The notes under the pieces were generated by a model. The model did not search any database, had not been told where the DNA came from, and saw only the letters and a list, made by a program, of their open reading frames with translations. A stretch of 64,000 bases of DNA from Aerococcus urinae (lineage in GTDB: Bacteria > Bacillota > Bacilli > Lactobacillales > Aerococcaceae), in assembly GCF_001543175.1 (NCBI RefSeq), contig NZ_CP014161.1, positions 62,001-126,000 on the forward strand. Direction: 5' to 3'. The position numbers were made by a program, and so were the translations under genes. Positions 3,872 to 37,911 of the stretch are shown here, piece after piece. Position 1 is the stretch's first letter, and the number at the start of each line of letters is the position of its first letter.

Positions 3872-5302
3872 ATGAATTATGAATCAGTTATTGGCTTAGA
3901 GATCCACGTGGAATTAAAAACCCAATCCAAAGTTTTCTCCCCAACACCTACCAGTTTTGGTGCCGATCCGAATACCCAAACTAACGTGATTGACTGGGGT
4001 TACCCTGGGGTTTTACCAGTAACCAACCACCATGCGGTTGAATTTGGCTTACGGGCTGCTTTGGCTTTGAACTGTGAAGTCAACCCGGTCCAAAGCTTTG
4101 ACCGCAAGAACTATTTCTATCCTGACAACCCTAAGGCCTACCAAATTACCCAATTAGACCGTCCTTTAGGGGAACATGGTTATGTGGATATTGAACTTGA
4201 AAATGGGGAAACTAAACGTATCCGCATTGAACGGATCCACTTAGAAGAAGACGCTGGGAAGAGTATCCACGATGAAGGCGATACCTTAGTGGACTTAAAC
4301 CGCCAAGGCACTCCGCTAGTGGAAATCGTTTCTGAAGCGGACATGCGTTCACCAGAAGAAGCCTATGCTTACTTGGAAAAAATCCGCGAAACCATGATGT
4401 TTATCGATGTTTCTGACGTGAAGATGGAAGAAGGGTCCATGCGTTGTGACGCCAACATCTCCTTGCGCCCTTATGGCCAAGAAGAATTCGGGACCAAGAC
4501 CGAAATTAAGAACTTGAACTCCTTCTCCAACGTCCGTCGCGGTTTAGCTTACGAAGAAAAACGTCAAGCCCAAGTCTTAAACCGCGGTGACCGGGTGGTT
4601 CAATCCACCCTCCGTTGGGACAAGGACAACCAAAAGACTGTCCTCATGCGGGTGAAAGAAGGGGAAGCCGACTACCGTTACTTCCCAGAACCTGACCTTC
4701 CTGAATTTACCGTCAGTGAAGAATGGTTGGACGAAATCAGAAAATCGATCCCAGAAATGCCAGCTGAACGTCGGAAACGCTACGTTGAAGAATACGACTT
4801 ACCAGACTATGATGCTATGGTCTTAACCCAAACCCTCGTGATGTCTGACTTCTTCGATGAAGCCGTTAAACTCGGTGGCGATCCTAAACAAGTTTCCAAT
4901 TGGTTGATGGGTGAAGTGTCCGCCTACATGAATGACAATGAAAAGACCCTGGACGAAATCGGTCTGACTCCAGAAAACTTGACCGAAATGATTGACTTGA
5001 TTGCTAACGGGACTATTTCTTCAAAAATTGGTAAGAAAGTCTTCAAGCACTTAGCTGAAAATGGCGGCTCTGCCAAGGAATATGTGGAAAAAGAAGGCCT
5101 GGTTCAAATTTCTGACCCAGAAACCTTGCTACCAATGATTAACGAAGTCATTGACAATAACCCACAATCCCTAGAAGACTACCGGGCTGGTAAGAAGAAA
5201 GCCATGGGTTACTTGGTTGGTCAATTGATGAAACAAACCAAGGGTCAAGCCAACCCACAAGTCTTGAACAAACTATTAAAACAAGAATTAGATAAACGTT
5301 AA
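3872..5302 (+). CDS. gatB: Asp/Glu-tRNA(Asn/Gln) amidotransferase subunit B
   Basis: A 476-residue GatB, the subunit that binds the misacylated tRNA and carries the kinase-like site. The family signatures are clear: the N-terminal [26 protein letters not shown], and [10 protein letters not shown]. The C-terminal helical YqeY-like tail is complete ([14 protein letters not shown]). The ribosome-binding site is AAGGGAG. It is the last gene of the operon and is followed by an intrinsic terminator. Confidence 0.98.
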
Positions 5303-29658: not shown

Positions 29659-30193
29659 ATGTTTAGCCCCAAGAGAGAAATTATGCTTATCAAAAATAAT
29701 CCAATATCATTTAAAAATCGTATGAAAGAATTGCTTTTCGATTATTTACTTATTCTTCTGTATTTAGCCTTGTTATTTGGAATAACCCTGGTAGTTTATT
29801 ACCTGTTTTTTAAAGGTATTCCGAAAATGAGTGAGTTACAAGCGCAGGTCATTGCTTTATTGACATCAGTTATTCCGATTATTTTGCTTTTTGCATATTT
29901 GGATTATTCAAAAGATGGCAGTATAGGTAAACGAAAAGCCGGTTTAAAGCTTGTTTATAAAGATAAATCTTTTCAAGCGAGCCTTATAAGAAACGTGATC
30001 AAATTTTTACCATGGCAAATAGGCCATATGAGTACGATCCATGGGAACCTATACTGACTTTGACATCTGGGCTATGGTGCTGTCTTTTATGAGCATCGGG
30101 TTTGCTGTATTACTATTATTAATGGGCCTCATGCGCAATGATAAAAGGCATTTAGGCGATTTGTTGGCACATAGTCAAGTACAGAATCGATAG
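29659..30193 (+). pseudogene. RDD family membrane protein, frameshifted
   Basis: The first frame gives a 124-132 residue RDD-like protein (start 29659 or, better, ATG 29683) with two membrane segments and the DGSIGKRKAGLKLVY motif. It ends abruptly after FLPWQIGHMSTIHG at a TGA (30055-30057). The continuation lies in another frame: FDIWAMVLSFMSIGFAVLLL and KRHLGDLLA, to a TAG at 30191-30193. Removing one base near GGGAACC (about 30044) joins the two parts. This is a single-base frameshift or an assembly error. RDD proteins are membrane proteins of varied or unknown transport role. Confidence 0.85.
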
Positions 30194-30272
30194 GTATTGA
30201 TTAGCAAAATAAGAGTTAAAATTTAAAGGAAGGACGACAAGTCCAGTCCATTTATCAAGAGCGAGGAATCAT

Positions 30273-30329
30273 CTAAAAAGCACCCTCAGCCTGGGCTGAA
30301 TCAGTGACTCCAATCCGATAATCATTCAT
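30273..30329 (-). pseudogene. Stub of a RelE/ParE-type toxin gene
   Basis: The minus-strand ATG overlaps the last codons of the antitoxin gene (ATGA arrangement). It encodes only 18 residues (MNDYRIGVTDSAQAEGAF) before a TAG. The YRIxxTxSAQA pattern resembles the beginning of ParE/RelE toxins. No continuation is seen in any frame. Inference: the toxin gene was lost, leaving the antitoxin. Confidence 0.5.
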
Positions 30330-30588
30330 GGTTCAGCTCTTTTCTTAAATCATTCATGACGTCTTTGAGTGGTTTTGTTCGTCCTGCGGCAACATCCTGC
30401 TCTCCGGCTTTTAATAAGGCATAAAGTTCATGCTTGCCAACGAGTTGTTCGTAGGCTTGAATACTCATCACAGCTAAATCGCCACGACCATTTTTAGTGG
30501 TAAAATCAGGAGAATTGCTTGCATGACAAAAGTTTGAAATATCATCATTGTTATTCCTTAAATCCGTACTCGATTGAATCTTAGACAT
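30322..30588 (-). CDS. Phd/YefM family antitoxin (orphan)
   Basis: An 88-residue protein with the Phd/YefM N-terminal fold: STDLRNNNDDISNFC near the start, then FTTKNGRGDLAVMSIQAYEQL. The C terminus is an acidic/basic helix of the kind that wraps a toxin. Ribosome-binding site AAAGGGTG on the minus strand. No intact toxin gene follows; only an 18-codon stub overlaps its end. Such antitoxins bind their own promoter. Confidence 0.82.
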   Translation of the reverse strand: MSKIQSSTDLRNNNDDISNFCHASNSPDFTTKNGRGDLAVMSIQAYEQLVGKHELYALLKAGEQDVAAGRTKPLKDVMNDLRKELNHE

Positions 30589-30732
30589 TTAAATCACCCT
30601 TTCTAAAGATATAATGCCATTATTTCTTTAGAGTAACAATTAAACTATTCCTAGCCTAGCTTATTGCCCATGCCTTCAATAAGGGCTTGAAAAACTAAAT
30701 AATCAATGAAAATTGAAATAAGAAACTAGCAA

Positions 30733-30757
30733 GAGGCTCCAGCAATGGAGCTTTTTT
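30733..30757 (+). terminator. Intrinsic terminator in the 30.6-30.95 kb gap
   Basis: AGGCTCC-AGCAAT-GGAGCTT plus T-run. It belongs to a small family of similar elements in the window (see 35949, 47022, 50536). The rest of this gap is AT-rich with no recognisable gene or riboswitch; a TTGACT (30839) and TATGAT (about 30889) occur but are not at promoter spacing. Confidence 0.6.
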
Positions 30758-30957
30758 AATGGAATAAATTTTATACCAGATAGTAGTTAAATAATTAATA
30801 AGATAAATTAAGATATTTAAAATAATAAATTACTATTTGTTGACTGTACACGCTTGATCGGTAAATGATAATTCATTTTTAAAAGTGCTATGATAGAATA
30901 ACTTAATCACAAAGAACTTAAATGTTAATGCTATTTGATTTAAGTAAAGGAGGAAAA

Positions 30958-31515
30958 ATGATGAATAAACATTTTAGCACACGAAACATTGTTGCAGTTG
31001 CTATTGGAGCAGCCCTATTTGGGATTTTGATGACTTACGGAGGGATTCCAGTTTTTACCAATACCAAGTTATCCACGGCTTACATCGTTCCTATCGTGGT
31101 TGGAGCCCTATTTGGACCGGTTCAAGCAGCCTTAGTTGGTTTGATTGGGAACGTCTTTGCGGATGCCTTAGGCGGAAGTGGTTTCTGGTTGGATTGGACC
31201 GTGGGCAATATGTTTGCTTGCTTCTTTATCGGCGCTTTAAAACTTTATGGTGCCGATATTCGTCGGGGCATCTTTACCGCTAAGCACGCGATGATTTATG
31301 CCTTGGTATCTGTTGTAGGATTAGAACTTTCTTTTGGTTTGATCACACCGCTCTTGACTAAGGTCTTCTACGGTGGTGAATTGGCCATTACCATCACTCA
31401 AGCCCAAGTGGCGGTTCTAACCAATGCCATCGTCGTCCTTGTCGTGGGGATTCCCTTGCTCTTTACTCTGGCTAAACGTTATCGGGGGACAACAAACTTG
31501 GTGGATGAAAACTAA
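30958..31515 (+). CDS. ECF transporter S component (UPF0397-like)
   Basis: The start is ATG 30958, five bases after AAAGGAGG; upstream in-frame codons are not part of the family. The 185-residue product has about five or six hydrophobic segments. It resembles the UPF0397-type S components (KLSTAYIVPIVVGALFGPVQAALVGLIGN type core, FWLDWTVGNMFACFFIGAL). An S component binds the substrate and docks on the shared energising module. The ATPase and T component follow directly, so this is a dedicated (group I) ECF system. The substrate is unassigned; the downstream SAM hydrolase genes suggest a SAM-, adenosine- or methionine-related compound. Confidence 0.82.
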   Translation: MMNKHFSTRNIVAVAIGAALFGILMTYGGIPVFTNTKLSTAYIVPIVVGALFGPVQAALVGLIGNVFADALGGSGFWLDWTVGNMFACFFIGALKLYGADIRRGIFTAKHAMIYALVSVVGLELSFGLITPLLTKVFYGGELAITITQAQVAVLTNAIVVLVVGIPLLFTLAKRYRGTTNLVDEN

Positions 31516-33245
31516 TGCAGCAAAATAGTCTTTCACCAATTATTCAATTTAAAGATTTTTCTTTTACCTACGCTTCCGCCCAAGAACCGGCTCTTAAAGA
31601 TATTAACTTGGAAATTTATCCAGGCGAAAAGATTCTGATTTTAGGGGCTAGTGGGAGTGGAAAATCCACCCTGGGACAGTGCATCAATGGACTGATTCCT
31701 AACCAGTTTGAAGGGACCATCACTGGGATGGCCACTGTTGCTGGGCACGCGGTAGGGTCTTCATCAGTTTTCGATTTATCTCAAGAGGTCGGTTCGGTCT
31801 TGCAGGATAGCGATGCCCAATTTGTTGGCATCAATGTGGCTGAGGATATTGCCTTTGCCCTAGAAAACCGTAACACGCCCAGATCTGTGATGAGGGCTTT
31901 CGTTGACAAGGTCGCTCGGCGGGTTGGGGTGATGGACCAGTTACAGTCGCTACCCTATTCCCTATCCGGCGGTCAGAAACAAAAAGTCTCTGTGGCAGGT
32001 ATCCTGGGGGAAAAGAACCAAATTTTACTCTTCGATGAACCCCTAGCAGCCTTAGACCCCCAGATGGGACTATCCATGGTTGAACTCATTGATTCTTTAA
32101 ATAAGCAGGATGGGAAGACCGTGATCATCATCGAACACCGCTTTGAAGATGTCCTCCACCGGCCTATTGATCGGGTGGTTTTATTAGACCAAGGGCGGAT
32201 TGTGACCGTGATGACGCCGGATGAACTGATTACTTCCGATCTCTTGATAAAATATGGGATTCGCGAGCCCCTTTATATTAGTGCCTTGAAGAATATGTAC
32301 GGAGGCTTGAAGCAAAAAGCAGGCTTGACCCAGTTAGATACTATCGACTTGTCTTCTTACCAAGGAAAACAGCCTTTGTTAGCAGTCGAAGAGTCCACTT
32401 CCAAAGAAGCTGAGGGAAGTGGTCAGGGTTCGCAAAGTGATTCTGACCAGGTCATTGTTCATTTAGAGGATTTGCGCTTTGGCTATGATCCCAAGCAGCC
32501 GCTTATTCAAATCCCAGAACTAACCATTAAACGGGGAGAACGTATTGCCATTGTGGGTGAGAATGGGTCAGGAAAATCCACCCTAGCCAAGCTCTTAACT
32601 GGGGTCTTAAAGCCACAGTCGGGGAGGATCGAACGCCTCGGAGACCCTGTTACCATTCAAGAAATCGCCCAACTGATTGGCTATGTCATGCAAAATCCTA
32701 ATCAAATGTTGGTGACGGATTCAGTCTACCGGGAGCTTGCCTTGGGATTGGAATACCGGCAGCTTGCTAAGGATGAAATCGATTCGCGGGTCCAGCAAGT
32801 CCTTCAAGTTACCGGCCTTTATCCGAAGCGGAACTGGCCAATTTCAGCCCTAAGTTACGGGCAGAAGAAGCGCTTATCAGTGGCTATTGTCCTCGCCCTA
32901 GAACCGACCTGCATTATCCTTGACGAGCCAACTGCTGGATCGGATTATGCTCATTACCGGGAAATTATGGAATTTATTGACGACCTGAACCAGACCTACC
33001 AAATGACCATGATTTTTATTACTCATGATATGCATTTGGCCCTGGAATACACCGATCGGGGCCTGGTCATTGAAGACGGCCACTTAATTGCTGACCGGCC
33101 GATTTTTGATATTTTAGCGGATGACCAACTGGTTCAACGGGCGTCCTTGAAGAAGACATCCATTTTTGACTTTGCCAAGCGCTTGGACTTACCGGTAGCT
33201 GACTTTGTTCAAGCCTTTATTAAAAGCGAAAGGGAGGGAAAGTAG
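31515..33245 (+). CDS. ECF transporter ATPase, two fused ABC domains
   Basis: A 576-residue protein with two complete ABC ATPase domains. Domain 1 has Walker A GASGSGKST (residues 44-52), signature LSGGQKQK and ILLFDEPLAALD. Domain 2 has GENGSGKST (about 348), LSYGQKKR and IILDEPTAGSD. A Ser/Glu/Gln linker near residues 285-305 joins them. It is the fused equivalent of EcfA1-EcfA2 (YkoD type). The start codon overlaps the S component stop by one base (TAATG). Confidence 0.92.
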   Translation: MQQNSLSPIIQFKDFSFTYASAQEPALKDINLEIYPGEKILILGASGSGKSTLGQCINGLIPNQFEGTITGMATVAGHAVGSSSVFDLSQEVGSVLQDSDAQFVGINVAEDIAFALENRNTPRSVMRAFVDKVARRVGVMDQLQSLPYSLSGGQKQKVSVAGILGEKNQILLFDEPLAALDPQMGLSMVELIDSLNKQDGKTVIIIEHRFEDVLHRPIDRVVLLDQGRIVTVMTPDELITSDLLIKYGIREPLYISALKNMYGGLKQKAGLTQLDTIDLSSYQGKQPLLAVEESTSKEAEGSGQGSQSDSDQVIVHLEDLRFGYDPKQPLIQIPELTIKRGERIAIVGENGSGKSTLAKLLTGVLKPQSGRIERLGDPVTIQEIAQLIGYVMQNPNQMLVTDSVYRELALGLEYRQLAKDEIDSRVQQVLQVTGLYPKRNWPISALSYGQKKRLSVAIVLALEPTCIILDEPTAGSDYAHYREIMEFIDDLNQTYQMTMIFITHDMHLALEYTDRGLVIEDGHLIADRPIFDILADDQLVQRASLKKTSIFDFAKRLDLPVADFVQAFIKSEREGK

Positions 33246-34088
33246 ATGCATGAGCAATTGATTATTCGTTATGATATTGGCGATGGCTACTTTGATCGCC
33301 TAGCGGGGTCAACCAAGTTATGGGTATTTGTCACTGCGCTAGCCTTAATGATGGTGTCTTTCGATTTGCGGATTATCCTTCCCCTTTTTCTGATCCACGC
33401 CTGGATCTTCAAGCAGGTTTACCGTGAGAGTAAGGCCTTGAAATTTATCTTTCGTTTTATGTTAATCATGAATCTGATTAATGTTTTACTTTACTATCTG
33501 GCTAATCCCTTAACCGGGACCGAGCTAGCAGGACAAATAACGATTTTATATCGCTTTAATGATTACTTTGTCGTCACCTATGAGACCTTGGTTTATTTCC
33601 TAGCCAGAATCATGAAGATGATTGGTAGTTTGATTATCAGCCTCTGCTTTATCTTAACCATCACGCCCACCCAGTTAGCCAGTGGTTTGTATGCTATGGG
33701 AGTGCCTTACCAAGTTGGCACCATGTTTTCTTTGGGGCTGAGATATATGCCGGATATCTTCCGCGATTTTACCGCGATCAAGGAATCCATGCAGATGCGG
33801 GGCTTGGAGCTCAATCCTAAGCGGGCTGGCATTTTCAAACGGCTCAAGGCTAATACTGCTATTCTCTTGCCCTTAATTATTGTCTCTTTTGACCAGGTCG
33901 AAACCATTTCCAGTGCCATGGATCTAAGAGGTTATGGCCAAGGGAAAAAACGAACTTACTATGGGGACCTAGAGCCTGGTGACCACGATAAACAGATGCG
34001 ACTCTTGGCCATAGTGCAAGGGGGAATCTTTGTTATTTATATGTGGTTACGGCTGACTGGAAGAGTGCATGAATTGTGGGTCATTTAG
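33246..34088 (+). CDS. ECF transporter T component
   Basis: A 280-residue EcfT/CbiQ-family membrane protein. It begins directly after the ATPase stop codon, so it is translationally coupled. It has several membrane segments and the cytoplasmic coupling motifs: SLGLRYMPDIFRDFTAIKESMQMRG (compare A-R-G motif) and ISSAMDLRGYG (compare SRG motif). These dock in the grooves of the two ATPase domains. Confidence 0.88.
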   Translation: MHEQLIIRYDIGDGYFDRLAGSTKLWVFVTALALMMVSFDLRIILPLFLIHAWIFKQVYRESKALKFIFRFMLIMNLINVLLYYLANPLTGTELAGQITILYRFNDYFVVTYETLVYFLARIMKMIGSLIISLCFILTITPTQLASGLYAMGVPYQVGTMFSLGLRYMPDIFRDFTAIKESMQMRGLELNPKRAGIFKRLKANTAILLPLIIVSFDQVETISSAMDLRGYGQGKKRTYYGDLEPGDHDKQMRLLAIVQGGIFVIYMWLRLTGRVHELWVI

Positions 34089-34169: not shown

Positions 34170-35018
34170 GTGAAAGCAATTTTAGTATTTCAGACCGATT
34201 TTACCTATAAGGAGGCAGCCGTCAGCGCCATGTATGGGGTGGTCAAGTCAGTCGACCGTGACTTAGAAATTATTACGGGGACCCATGAGATTCCCAACTA
34301 TGATATCTGGAGCGGTTCTTTCCGTCTTTACCAACCCATGCAATTTTGGCCCCAGGGCACTATTTTCGTCTCAGTCGTTGACCCTGGTGTGGGGACCAGT
34401 CGGCGGACTTGTATTGCCCAGACCAAAAACGGCTACACCATTGTGACACCCGATAACGGGAGCCTGACCCATGTGGCCAAGCACTTTGGGATTGAAAGGG
34501 TGGTTGAGATTGATATTGACCGTCACCGCCTAAAGGGGCAGGGGACAGAAGGGATCTCGGTCTTTCATGGCCGTGATGTCTTTGCCTATTGTGCGGCACG
34601 GTTAGCTAGCGGACAAGTTGCCTTTGAAGAATTTGGCTCGGAATATCCGGTAGATGAGATTGTCACTTTCGATTTGATTGAGCCGAAAAAAGCACAGGAC
34701 CGGTTGACAGGAATGGGAGAGATTATTGACCCTAACTTTGGTAATTATTGGACCAACATCCCCTTTGCCTGGTTAAAAGACCAATCCGGGAAGTCAGTTA
34801 GAGTCATTGTGCGTTCAGCGAGTGGAGCAGTCGTCTTCGATGAAGCGATTCAAATCCATAAGACCTTTGGCGAGGTGAGCTTAGGGGAATTAACTATTTA
34901 TCAGAATGAATTTGGCAACTTGAGTCTAGCTATTAACCAAGGCAGTTTTATTTCTAAATACGACCTGCCTTACGGGGTTGGGGTTAGTGTCGAAGTAGTA
35001 TTGAGTGAGGAGGAATAG
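34170..35018 (+). CDS. SAM hydroxide adenosyltransferase (DUF62), triad intact
   Basis: I use GTG 34170, after AAGGGAG. Upstream in-frame codons to 34113 are not family-like. The 282-residue protein belongs to the DUF62 family (SAM + hydroxide to adenosine + methionine; also fluorinase and chlorinase). The Asp-Arg-His triad of the hydrolases is intact: Asp71 and Arg78 in VVDPGVGTSRR, His133 in VFHGRDVF; PDNG is also present. The N-terminal DFG..D motif is altered (TDFTYKEAAVS). It is the fourth gene of the ECF operon, 81 bases after the T component, and ends four bases before a paralog. Confidence 0.86.
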   Translation: MKAILVFQTDFTYKEAAVSAMYGVVKSVDRDLEIITGTHEIPNYDIWSGSFRLYQPMQFWPQGTIFVSVVDPGVGTSRRTCIAQTKNGYTIVTPDNGSLTHVAKHFGIERVVEIDIDRHRLKGQGTEGISVFHGRDVFAYCAARLASGQVAFEEFGSEYPVDEIVTFDLIEPKKAQDRLTGMGEIIDPNFGNYWTNIPFAWLKDQSGKSVRVIVRSASGAVVFDEAIQIHKTFGEVSLGELTIYQNEFGNLSLAINQGSFISKYDLPYGVGVSVEVVLSEEE

Positions 35019-35021
35019 ATA

Positions 35022-35900
35022 ATGGGTATCGATTTTAGTAAAGTTCCTGCTTTTCGTCAGCAATTAGTCTTTCAAAGTGACTTTGGACTTAACGATGGGG
35101 CGGTATCGGCCATGACGGGGGTAGTAGTGACGGTTGATGAGAGTCTTAGTATCCATCACTTAACCCACAACATTCCTCCTTATGATATTTATTTGGCTGG
35201 CTATCGGCTCTATCAGACCTATTCCTACTGGCCTGAGGGGACCATCTTCGTATCGATTGTTGACCCTGGTGTGGGCTACCAGCAAAAGTCAGTGATTGCC
35301 TTGTTAGAGAGTGGTCATTATATCGTCACCCCTAATAATGGGACCCTGTCTTTTCTGGCTAAGTATGTGGGGGTCCAGGCGGTTTGGGAAATTGATAAGG
35401 AGAAGAACTTACTCCCTTCGACCAACCAGTCCTATACCTTCTACGGCCGCGACTTGTACGCTTATACAGCGGCTCGTTTAGCCAGTGGGAAATTACAGTT
35501 AAGTGAAGTGGGGGAAGAACTTGCTATCAGTGAGCTCAAGCTCCATGAGATTGCTGACTTCCAGATTAATCCTGAGGAAGCTGTACTCAGTGGTCACGTT
35601 GCCATTCACGATGAACGTTTCGGCTCGCTCTGGACTAATATCCCCTATGAGTCTTTACAAGACTTAGAAGTGAAAACAGGCGACCAACTCCATCTTCAAA
35701 TCCACCACCAAGGGCAGACGGTCTATGATGACTTAGTTCCAGTCGTCCAATCCTTCCAATCTGTTCCCCAAAGTCGGGCGCTGATCTACTGTAATTCGCT
35801 CAAGAATTTGGCGGTTGCCCTCAATCAAAATAGCTTTGCCCAAGCCTACAAGGTCGGTTATGGGTCTGACTGGCAGCTTACTTTTCAAAAGAGTAAATAG
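35022..35900 (+). CDS. SAM hydroxide adenosyltransferase paralog (DUF62), triad degenerate
   Basis: A 292-residue DUF62 protein, clearly homologous to the gene before it (same length and motif order). It keeps the N-terminal SDFGLND motif and Asp81 of VDPGVG. However, the triad Arg is replaced by Gln88 (GVGYQQKS) and the triad His by Tyr141 (TFYGRD); PDNG became PNNG. The residue identities are seen directly; loss of SAM hydrolysis, a changed nucleophile, or a partner role in a mixed trimer with the first copy is inference. It ends the operon before a terminator. Confidence 0.85.
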   Translation: MGIDFSKVPAFRQQLVFQSDFGLNDGAVSAMTGVVVTVDESLSIHHLTHNIPPYDIYLAGYRLYQTYSYWPEGTIFVSIVDPGVGYQQKSVIALLESGHYIVTPNNGTLSFLAKYVGVQAVWEIDKEKNLLPSTNQSYTFYGRDLYAYTAARLASGKLQLSEVGEELAISELKLHEIADFQINPEEAVLSGHVAIHDERFGSLWTNIPYESLQDLEVKTGDQLHLQIHHQGQTVYDDLVPVVQSFQSVPQSRALIYCNSLKNLAVALNQNSFAQAYKVGYGSDWQLTFQKSK

Positions 35901-35948: not shown

Positions 35949-35976
35949 AGAAGCTCCAGCAATGGGGCTTCTTCTT
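35949..35976 (+). terminator. Terminator of the ECF/SAM hydrolase operon
   Basis: GAAGCTCC-AGCAAT-GGGGCTTC followed by TTCTTTT; same core as the hairpin at 30733. Confidence 0.75.
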
Positions 35977-36171
35977 TTGCAGAGCTGGGCCTGACCCCTA
36001 TGCTTACATTGGTTAGGGAGGAGAGCGTTTAATTTCTTGGTCTCTTGTAAAAAAATAGACTTTTATTGAAATATCCTAGCAGGTTGATCTCTGATAAAAT
36101 AATAAAGATATTTATAGAGTCTGATAATAAAATATCTTATTATAAACGAGGACCAGAATGGTGGTGAATAG

Positions 36172-36717
36172 GTGGAAGAATTGAGTCTGTTCTTAGGGCT
36201 AGTGGGATTCTTAGGGGTCCTTTTTCTAATACTAGCTAATGGATTGAAAAGTCGACAGTCATCGAGTGGGAAGTTTAAGCTATTTGTCGAATGCATGGAC
36301 CAGCTTGGTTTTCTCTTCTTAGCTTTCTTGCTCATAGCTGTGATCTTAATGGGAGACTTTAATTGCAGCAATTGGAAATTTTGGCTTTTAGCTCTTTGTG
36401 CGCTCCTCCTTTTTATTTCTGGAAGCTGGGGATTGTTTCGCCTAATTAATGACCAGTTTCAAGGTACCAAGAAGCAGGTTTTTCATGTGAAGGGGGCGGT
36501 AAGAGAATCCCATATCAATCTTCAAGCAACGACCTATCGCTTGGAGACCGTGGAGGGGATAGGTTTGCGGGTGGATAGGTCTCAGTATCAGACTGTCAAA
36601 AATGCTTTTATCTTGTTAGAGGGCCAGCATTATTCACTCTACAGGTCTGAGCTTGCCTACCAGATTGACTACTACCCAAAAACCAAACTGGTGATTGCTC
36701 TGACACTTATAAAATAA
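36172..36717 (+). CDS. Membrane protein of unknown function A
   Basis: A 181-residue protein starting at GTG 36172 after GGTGGTG. The N-terminal part has three hydrophobic segments; the C-terminal part is a soluble domain of about 80 residues ending in a conserved IDYYPKTKLVIAL strand. It is a paralog of the protein at 37405-37911, with the same layout and the same DYYPK(T/S)K ending. I recognise no named family. It forms a three-gene set with the two following genes, all encoding membrane proteins of similar size. Confidence 0.7.
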   Translation: MEELSLFLGLVGFLGVLFLILANGLKSRQSSSGKFKLFVECMDQLGFLFLAFLLIAVILMGDFNCSNWKFWLLALCALLLFISGSWGLFRLINDQFQGTKKQVFHVKGAVRESHINLQATTYRLETVEGIGLRVDRSQYQTVKNAFILLEGQHYSLYRSELAYQIDYYPKTKLVIALTLIK

Positions 36718-36764
36718 TTGGTCAGAAGAGAAGTGAATGATTTTCAGCTCAAAGGAGGAATACC

Positions 36765-37379
36765 TTGAAAAGCATCTTAATTATCCAGCAAATCACTTTC
36801 TTGGTTGCTTCTTTGTTGGGGCTCTTTGTGAATTGGCAGGCTAAACGGCGGAAGAAACAAATCCTAGCAGCTGAGACGACTAGTCAAGGGCCGATCATCC
36901 AAAAAGCGCCCAAAAGAATAGCAATCATTGCCTACTTATTAATGGGCTTAGCGGGGATCCTCCTCATCATGACTGTGCTGTTAACATTTGCTGAACAAGA
37001 GGTCGGTGAGCTGGCCTTCGTAATCTTTTTGGTCCTATCCTTAGTCTTTTGGTTAATAGGGATCTACTTATCCCTAGTGGGCAGGCATTATTTATATGCG
37101 GAAGATGAGGAAAAATTCTTGCTAAAAACCATTGGCAAGCTGACCACCATATATTATAAAGATATGCTTACTTATCAGGTAAAACATGACCAGCTCATTG
37201 TCACAGATCGACGAGGGCAGCAAGCAGCTGTTGATCTTCGCTTATTTGCACCTGTGAAACTGGTAGGAGTCATTTTAAGCCAGCTTAATGATGAAATTGA
37301 CCGCCTAAGGCTTTTAAATGAAGATATTCCTGACCATTTATTCGTCTATCAAGATTGGTTGAGGCGATATTTGGATTGA
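36765..37379 (+). CDS. Membrane protein of unknown function B
   Basis: A 204-residue protein starting at TTG 36765 with a strong ribosome-binding site (AAAGGAGG). One N-terminal membrane segment, a short basic loop, two further segments around residues 52-110, then a soluble C-terminal domain of about 90 residues ending in a charged Leu/Asp-rich helix. It lies between the two related proteins A and C. No family recognised. Confidence 0.7.
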   Translation: MKSILIIQQITFLVASLLGLFVNWQAKRRKKQILAAETTSQGPIIQKAPKRIAIIAYLLMGLAGILLIMTVLLTFAEQEVGELAFVIFLVLSLVFWLIGIYLSLVGRHYLYAEDEEKFLLKTIGKLTTIYYKDMLTYQVKHDQLIVTDRRGQQAAVDLRLFAPVKLVGVILSQLNDEIDRLRLLNEDIPDHLFVYQDWLRRYLD

Positions 37380-37404
37380 ATCTTTACTAGAAAAGGAAAA
37401 ACGA

Positions 37405-37911
37405 ATGACTTATATGGCTTACATCGGATTTACCGGAATCCTCTTAATGGCTAGCTACGGAGTCTTGGCTAGTTTTAAAGTAAGAAGTGCCAAATATCAA
37501 CTCTTTCTCCAGGGCTTATGGGCCCTGGCTTTACTGATGGCGAGTCTCTTTCCCCTAGCTTTGCTTCTAAAAGAAAGGCCTGCTATTAGCTCGCTATTTT
37601 TCTGGGTTAGCAGTCTTACAGGGATAGGATTAATTAGCTGGGGTGCCTATGAAGGTTATCGCTTGCTTTATGACCTGTGGCATGGAAGTCAGCGCCAATC
37701 CTTCCAAGTGATTGCAGCTCGAAAGATTGATCGAAGTTTGCGCCATGGTGGGGATTATTATCTCATTGAAAGCGCTCAGGGAATGATTTTTGAAGTAGAT
37801 TATTATACTTATCAAGCGGTTAAGCGAGCGTTATGGCAAACACCAAGACTTTCAGTTTGCTTAGACTATTATCCCAAAAGCAAAATTATTGTTGAATTAG
37901 TTATGGATTAA
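37405..37911 (+). CDS. Membrane protein of unknown function C (paralog of A)
   Basis: A 168-residue protein with three N-terminal hydrophobic segments, a short Trp-rich linker (YDLWHGSQRQSFQV), and a C-terminal domain ending LDYYPKSKIIVELV, matching protein A at 36172-36717. The ribosome-binding site is AAAGGAA. It follows protein B after 25 bases, so A, B and C are probably one operon. Function unknown. Confidence 0.7.
   Translation: MTYMAYIGFTGILLMASYGVLASFKVRSAKYQLFLQGLWALALLMASLFPLALLLKERPAISSLFFWVSSLTGIGLISWGAYEGYRLLYDLWHGSQRQSFQVIAARKIDRSLRHGGDYYLIESAQGMIFEVDYYTYQAVKRALWQTPRLSVCLDYYPKSKIIVELVMD

Follow-up and report, generated by a model that had tools for sequence, protein, structure and literature searches.

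The operon and its two DUF62 paralogs

The stretch of Aerococcus urinae DNA analysed here (64,000 nucleotides of contig NZ_CP014161.1, referred to at its full length as the window) carries one operon of a widespread kind, in which an energy-coupling factor (ECF) importer is followed by one or two paralogs of the DUF62 family of S-adenosylmethionine (SAM) hydroxide adenosyltransferases; two are present here and are called copy 1 and copy 2. The enzyme family is already known, while its transporter setting is widespread and undescribed in the literature searched, and one member at this locus, copy 2, has naturally lost two residues of its catalytic triad. The gene order is EcfS-EcfAA-EcfT-A-B, with copies 1 and 2 last, and is common to two other genomes. 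The features are as follows (model cut-offs in brackets; types A and B are defined below).

30958..31515, + strand: EcfS, substrate-binding component of the ECF importer; PF07155 90.6 bits (26.7); start set by the preceding AAAGGAGG, start of the open reading frame (ORF) lister 30922
31515..33245, + strand: EcfA-EcfA' fusion, both importer ATPases in one protein; TIGR04520 397.7 bits and TIGR04521 345.1 bits, both above cut-off
33246..34088, + strand: EcfT, transmembrane component; PF02361 78 bits (25)
34170..35018, + strand: copy 1, type-A SAM hydroxide adenosyltransferase; SAM_HAT N-terminal domain PF01887 153.4 bits (26.3), C-terminal domain PF20257 64 bits (25.5)
35022..35900, + strand: copy 2, type-B paralog; PF01887 157.9 bits, PF20257 68.3 bits
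35950..35979, + strand: possible terminator, an 8-pair hairpin followed by T-rich TTCTTTTG, read by eye

All components of an ECF transporter, S, A, A' and T, are present above cut-off (PF07155, TIGR04520 with TIGR04521, and PF02361). They are the same components as in the vitamin B12 transporter ECF-CbrT, a characterised ECF transporter (PMC5997447), and enzymes as operon neighbours are a second point of similarity. The importer differs from known ECF transporters in the fusion of A and A', in having SAM hydrolase paralogs as neighbours and in an EcfS without a solved relative by sequence, a search of PDB sequences having returned one chance-level row (E 0.67). The start of copy 1 was placed at GTG 34170, the first start of the ORF lister, TTG 34113, being judged less likely. 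Three bases separate the genes of copies 1 and 2, a ribosome-binding-like GAGGAGG precedes copy 2, and the copy 2 frame is full-length and free of stops. The two are the sole PF01887 matches in the host genome (a single contig of 1.97 Mb). A terminator scan did not list the hairpin at 35950..35979, and the region was without excess (6 found, 6.0 expected).

Triad residues across the family

The published DUF62 triad is D68-R75-H127 (PMC4859513). The literature ascribes to it the activation of water. A sequence-only reading of the window had described the two copies as carrying opposite patterns of active-site change, and the ORFs and residues that it gave were both confirmed: copy 1 has the motif TDFTYKEAAVS together with D71, R78 and H133, a complete Asp-Arg-His triad, and copy 2 has SDFGLND and keeps D81, with Gln88 in place of Arg and Tyr141 in place of His. 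The three positions in copy 2 all fall inside SAM_HAT_N (residues 16-164 of the protein).

These residues were compared over a pooled set of 274 distinct proteins plus PH0463, from which matches with E > 1e-10, proteins of < 200 amino acids and duplicates had been dropped. The set was divided by motif into type A (DFT[YF]xE, 82 proteins), type B (DFGxxDGA, 174 proteins including copy 2) and 19 others, PH0463 among them; counts of the motif letters are therefore circular, and the triad counts are independent. In type A, D68 and R75 are present in 82/82 proteins and H127 in 81/82, and the members come from four phyla, Bacillota, Chloroflexota, Spirochaetota and Actinomycetota. Judged by its residues, copy 1 is a normal type-A member, and its DFT motif is the trait of a clade and no sign of degeneration. 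Half of the proposed opposition thus stands, in that copy 2 lacks Arg and His, and half does not, since the triad of copy 1 is complete and its motif is shared by a clade of 82.

Type B has D68 in 174/174, R75 in 173/174 and H127 in 172/174 proteins, and the Asp of PDNG in 171/174. Copy 2 is the only type-B protein to have lost the Arg. Tyr occupies the His place in two type-B proteins only, copy 2 and L147. Asn replaces the Asp of PDNG in copy 2 (Asn105, giving P-N-N-G) and L271 only, and L112 has Glu there. A further change in copy 2 is Tyr86 for Ser/Thr. Outside types A and B, Tyr and Glu stand at the His place in L179 and L191, respectively, and L084 is incomplete. Copy 2 aligned to PH0463 without gaps at the triad sites, and the alignment contained no replacement Arg or His at the triad places, a check for which the sequence-only reading had called; its K89 falls in a column that holds K, R, L or Q in other sequences.

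Copy 2 retains 63 of 70 conserved columns, has a confident fold model (predicted local distance difference test score, pLDDT, 91) and displays a steep gradient of constraint, and within the operon the B gene alone is fast-changing. It differs from the SAM hydroxide adenosyltransferases or (R)-SAM hydrolases of the family (PF01887 with PF20257; PH0463, TM1088, MJ1651) by the absence of Arg and His. With both SAM_HAT domains and the fold present and the triad reduced to its Asp, copy 2 is a family homolog and is not filed as a SAM hydrolase. Unlike known (R)-SAM hydrolases, both copies lie in an ECF operon, and both fall below the equivalog cut-offs of NF053629 (470 bits) and NF058624 (350 bits): copy 1 scored 122.1 and 118.3 bits, and copy 2 scored 86.2 and 124.2 bits. 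Both are also far below the 400-bit cut-off of the fluorinase model TIGR04507, at 77.8 bits for copy 1 and 88.5 bits for copy 2.

A natural loss of His was also observed elsewhere. In L147 (7980-9704; also L320), the type-A gene has FNGRD and the type-B gene has FYGRD, so that His is lost in both while Arg and Asp are kept. The family of L147 has a match in 12 of 32 genomes, 11 of which carry an A-B pair, and 10 of these 11 keep His in both genes. The loss in both paralogs with frames kept weakens the argument that copy 2 lacks function for want of His; the argument from loss of Arg is unaffected.

The two types at the methionine end of SAM

The carboxyl group of methionine is bound in FlA by Ser269 together with Arg270, and the amino group by Asp21 and Ser23 (PMC1282579). 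Type A differs from FlA in having Glu at the Ser269 place, both in copy 1 (Glu247) and in 81/81 other type-A rows, while Ser is found there in copy 2 and in 173/173 other type-B proteins. The FlA Asp21 place holds Asp in type B and Glu in type A and is part of the type definition. The contrast between the types therefore falls at the site that binds the methionine end of SAM, from which we infer a possible effect on substrate choice. If the two types do take different forms of the substrate, Glu in one and Ser in the other would suggest as candidates the two SAM epimers, or a sulfonium without that carboxyl.

The comparison with halogenases was limited to the rows fixed by motifs (S269, N215, W217, PNNG, Y70/D, T80, R75). 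Halide contacts are T80-S158 in the fluorinase and Y70-G131 in SalL (PMC4859513). Like SalL and 7ccg, copy 2 has Tyr in the triad His position (Y141) and the Asn of PNNG (N105). In contrast to FlA, SalL and ClA1 (7ccg), it keeps Asp81 where these have Tyr (SalL Y70, FlA Y77) and has Val at the place of Thr80. On these two positions the assignment of copy 2 as a SAM-dependent halogenase was rejected.

Distribution of the ECF-DUF62 module

The family was sought at three depths: 26 of 60 relatives had a match, as did 23 of 76 genomes from the host family and 142 of 395 from the order. Two full-length copies occur in 2/395 order genomes only, the host (G000) and a genome of the same family (G020); the second matches in G084 and G391 are fragments. 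Partial or stop-interrupted SAM_HAT matches are scattered through the order (G079, with one TAG; G391, with one TGA; G035; G070; and the second match of G084), a sign of repeated gene loss. A scan of named genomes with an alignment of copy 1 and its G020 counterpart gave 167 relatives, 80 of which were retained as loci, and a scan with copy 2 alone as query confirmed no relative in 79 stretches.

The association with the importer was counted over 79 type-A loci, after removal of a duplicate of the G020 locus (L093). Among the 75 loci with > 1 kb of upstream sequence, 71 have EcfT no more than 1.5 kb upstream of A. Over all 79 loci, an AA protein lies upstream of A in 71 and an S component is found within 6 kb in 64; for S components beyond the window, the name rests on resemblance to just two queries. 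A type-B gene is on the same strand as A in 39/79 loci, downstream in 13 and upstream in 26. No description of the ECF-DUF62 pairing was found in the open-licence literature, seen in part, and comparative surveys of ECF transporters may mention it.

B proteins were also sought in 35 whole genomes, comprising 34 with an A locus lacking a complete B plus L136, which has B; assemblies in this sample may be incomplete, and A-only loci on short contigs (L130, L146, L150, L152, L158, L161) were excluded. Of these genomes, 5 (including L136) contained a B-type match and 3 an additional tandem pair related to A; the remaining 27 had no second full-length match. A is commonly present without B, and B without A. 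The co-occurrence that the sequence-only reading proposed to look for is therefore not general: the 27/35 genomes with A and no second full-length match and the rarity of two-copy genomes in the order indicate that neither type generally needs the other. Where both partners stand together in G020 and in L094, both are triad-complete.

A second kind of tandem SAM_HAT pair was observed at L321:4172-5905, L322:1914-3729 and L323:4516-6282, with triads intact in both members. It follows S, AA and T-like genes (by eye) and branches with type A, and its C-terminal FGN-x-WTN motif is altered to FGLVSSN and FGNISTN. The occurrence of this extra pair behind a second S-AA-T set indicates that tandem duplication at this transporter happened more than once. 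In addition, a divergent type-B-like gene adjoins an ATP-binding cassette (ABC) ATPase gene at L171:959-1804 (minus strand), with an A-B pair on the opposite strand of the same Spirochaetes contig.

Regulation and importer cargo

A riboswitch scan covered 28 loci, of which 21 contain type A and the other 7 B alone. A T-box leader directly precedes the operon in 1/28, in L094, a locus of the same gene order with 28% GC, where it occupies 4648-4853 (98.1 bits) and ends 55 bases before the EcfS start at 4909; L086 and L126 also have T-boxes, located outside the modules. The specifier triplet, at the position that we take to be the specifier, reads AUG (methionine) in the Rfam consensus alignment, and a shift of one base either way gives UAU or UGG. 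If the AUG reading is right, the operon would be on when methionine is short, which would fit the import and cleavage of a sulfonium that yields methionine. The L094 T-box hints at a role in methionine salvage; the curated model named for riboflavin that the window EcfS passes (NF010182), and the MetK and MetE-type proteins of the host genome, speak against such a role. That L094 is a mis-binned Aerococcaceae contig was considered less likely (GC 0.278, compared with 0.448 in L093).

A motif scan for T-boxes over all loci returned L094 only and is insensitive, since it missed those of L086 and L126. No Rfam riboswitch reached the gathering score over the 64-kb window, none was found before EcfS (30000-31000) at E up to 1, and none was found before the G020 operon. 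The EcfS of the window is 63.9% identical to that of G020. Auxotrophy for SAM or methionine was considered as the reason for import and is unsupported as a simple story, MetK and a MetE-type protein being present.

Proposed roles and alternative explanations

The explanation that we favour, at a probability of about 0.5, is that type A is a working hydrolase of SAM or a SAM-like compound behind the importer, and that copy 2 is a rapidly changing paralog, impaired in hydrolysis and retained for a role in binding or assembly. For copy 1, the most likely reaction is hydrolysis of SAM or of a closely related sulfonium, imported or internal, in which water attacks C5' and adenosine and methionine are released; the triad for this reaction is observed, and the activity and substrate are presumptive. 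Copy 2 is without the Arg and His that assist in activating water; its Asp, its fold and the majority of its conserved residues remain. It most likely folds, binds SAM or adenosine, and hydrolyses slowly or not at all. Its role would be that of a binding or assembly partner, unless it is caught in early functional drift, and the two copies would not form a joint triad.

Several observations weigh against this explanation. Copy 2 is known from one genome, where relaxed decay is not separable from a kept new role. Its orthology to the B genes of G020 and L094 is putative (p-AU 0.0746 when grouped with them), and a post hoc Fisher test of losses at the triad sites is weak (p = 0.027). His may be dispensable, as both L147 frames are open despite its loss, and L179 has Tyr at the His place with Arg kept. 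Finally, EcfS passes a model named for riboflavin and not for SAM, although a family name is no test of cargo.

The sequence-only reading had proposed that the two copies form a mixed trimer whose composite active sites restore or change activity. The geometry of the family gives this some footing, since the FlA active site is built from an N-terminal domain and the C-terminal domain of a neighbour (PMC1282579), and published DUF62 structures place the site between protomers (PMC12120602). FlA-like proteins without the long loop may hold SAM within a single subunit, a speculation of the former paper (PMC1282579). The genes share an operon with a gap of three bases, tandem pairs recur beside the importer (39/79 type-A loci have B on the same strand), and the C-terminal domain of copy 2, which keeps Ser259 and W204, could line the copy-1 site. 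However, D, R and H all come from one N-terminal domain of one chain, so that a partner would be unable to repair copy 2, and copy 1 owns a complete triad; the composite triad is unlikely on this ground. Moreover, A is without another full-length match in most of the 35 genomes searched, and the G020 and L094 partners are both triad-complete. A mixed trimer that restores or changes activity is rated as highly improbable. That copy 2 lends just its C-terminal domain to the copy-1 site is possible, and such lending is not needed elsewhere. A new reaction in copy 2, with a remodelled pocket (Asp81, Tyr86, Gln88, Asn105, Tyr141) admitting another nucleophile such as a halide, is improbable. These are five changes in the pocket region with the fold kept, and halogenases share the Tyr at the His place and the Asn in PNNG (SalL, 7ccg; Y157 of FlA is listed among its active-site residues; PMC9234330). 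Yet copy 2 has Asp where halogenases have Tyr and Val at the Thr80 place, its TIGR04507 score is far short of the cut-off, and the neighbours examined included no recognisable biosynthetic genes.

Decay of copy 2 into a redundant paralog without function would agree with the broken and partial copies in the order and with the B gene alone being fast in the operon. This outcome is unlikely, as the frame is stop-free and full-length behind GAGGAGG, the gradient of constraint is steep, and free drift at ~50% identity would be expected to lose far more conserved columns than the few missing from 70. More credible, if still doubtful, is that the importer carries an unrelated cargo such as riboflavin and that the hydrolases serve an independent housekeeping function, such as clearing (R,S)-SAM. 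EcfS scores 118 bits against the cut-off of 99 for NCBIfam NF010182, 'ECF-type riboflavin transporter substrate-binding protein', and also matches PF07155; the presence of MetK indicates that the cell makes its own SAM; and a DUF62 enzyme selective for (R,S)-SAM has been measured, in a report that regards SAM hydrolysis as wasteful and (R,S)-SAM cleavage as perhaps not the real function (PMC12120602). Against this, the adjacency of EcfT and A in 71/75 loci across several phyla is tighter than that of chance neighbours, the name of an S-component family does not test cargo, and this EcfS has no solved relative by sequence. A more ambitious proposal is that ECF-DUF62 operons are import-and-cleave systems for external SAM or related sulfoniums, yielding methionine and adenosine, in which A and B take different substrate forms and copy 2 no longer hydrolyses and serves copy 1 or the transporter as a partner or sensor that binds SAM or adenosine. 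In this full form it is distinctly unlikely.

What DUF62 SAM hydrolases do for the cell is a matter of open debate (PMC12120602). With the operon joined to an importer, the fixed A/B difference at the methionine-carboxyl contact and the T-box of L094, a role in sulfonium uptake and cleavage becomes directly testable. In copy 2, nature has run an experiment on the triad, with Arg and His gone and Asp and fold kept; taken alone, it is a single-genome oddity, and it is the ECF-DUF62 module that makes the purpose of DUF62 testable.

Neighbouring sequences

At L085:8986-9331, ~1 kb downstream of the G020 operon, a short tandem DNA repeat encodes the repeating peptide RRESLCILAVDNRF in an open frame. 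In the window, small membrane-type proteins follow the operon at 36172-37911. One of these, of 181 amino acids, has no Pfam match, and it resembles another of 168 amino acids in the same region (26.9% identity, E 3e-13).
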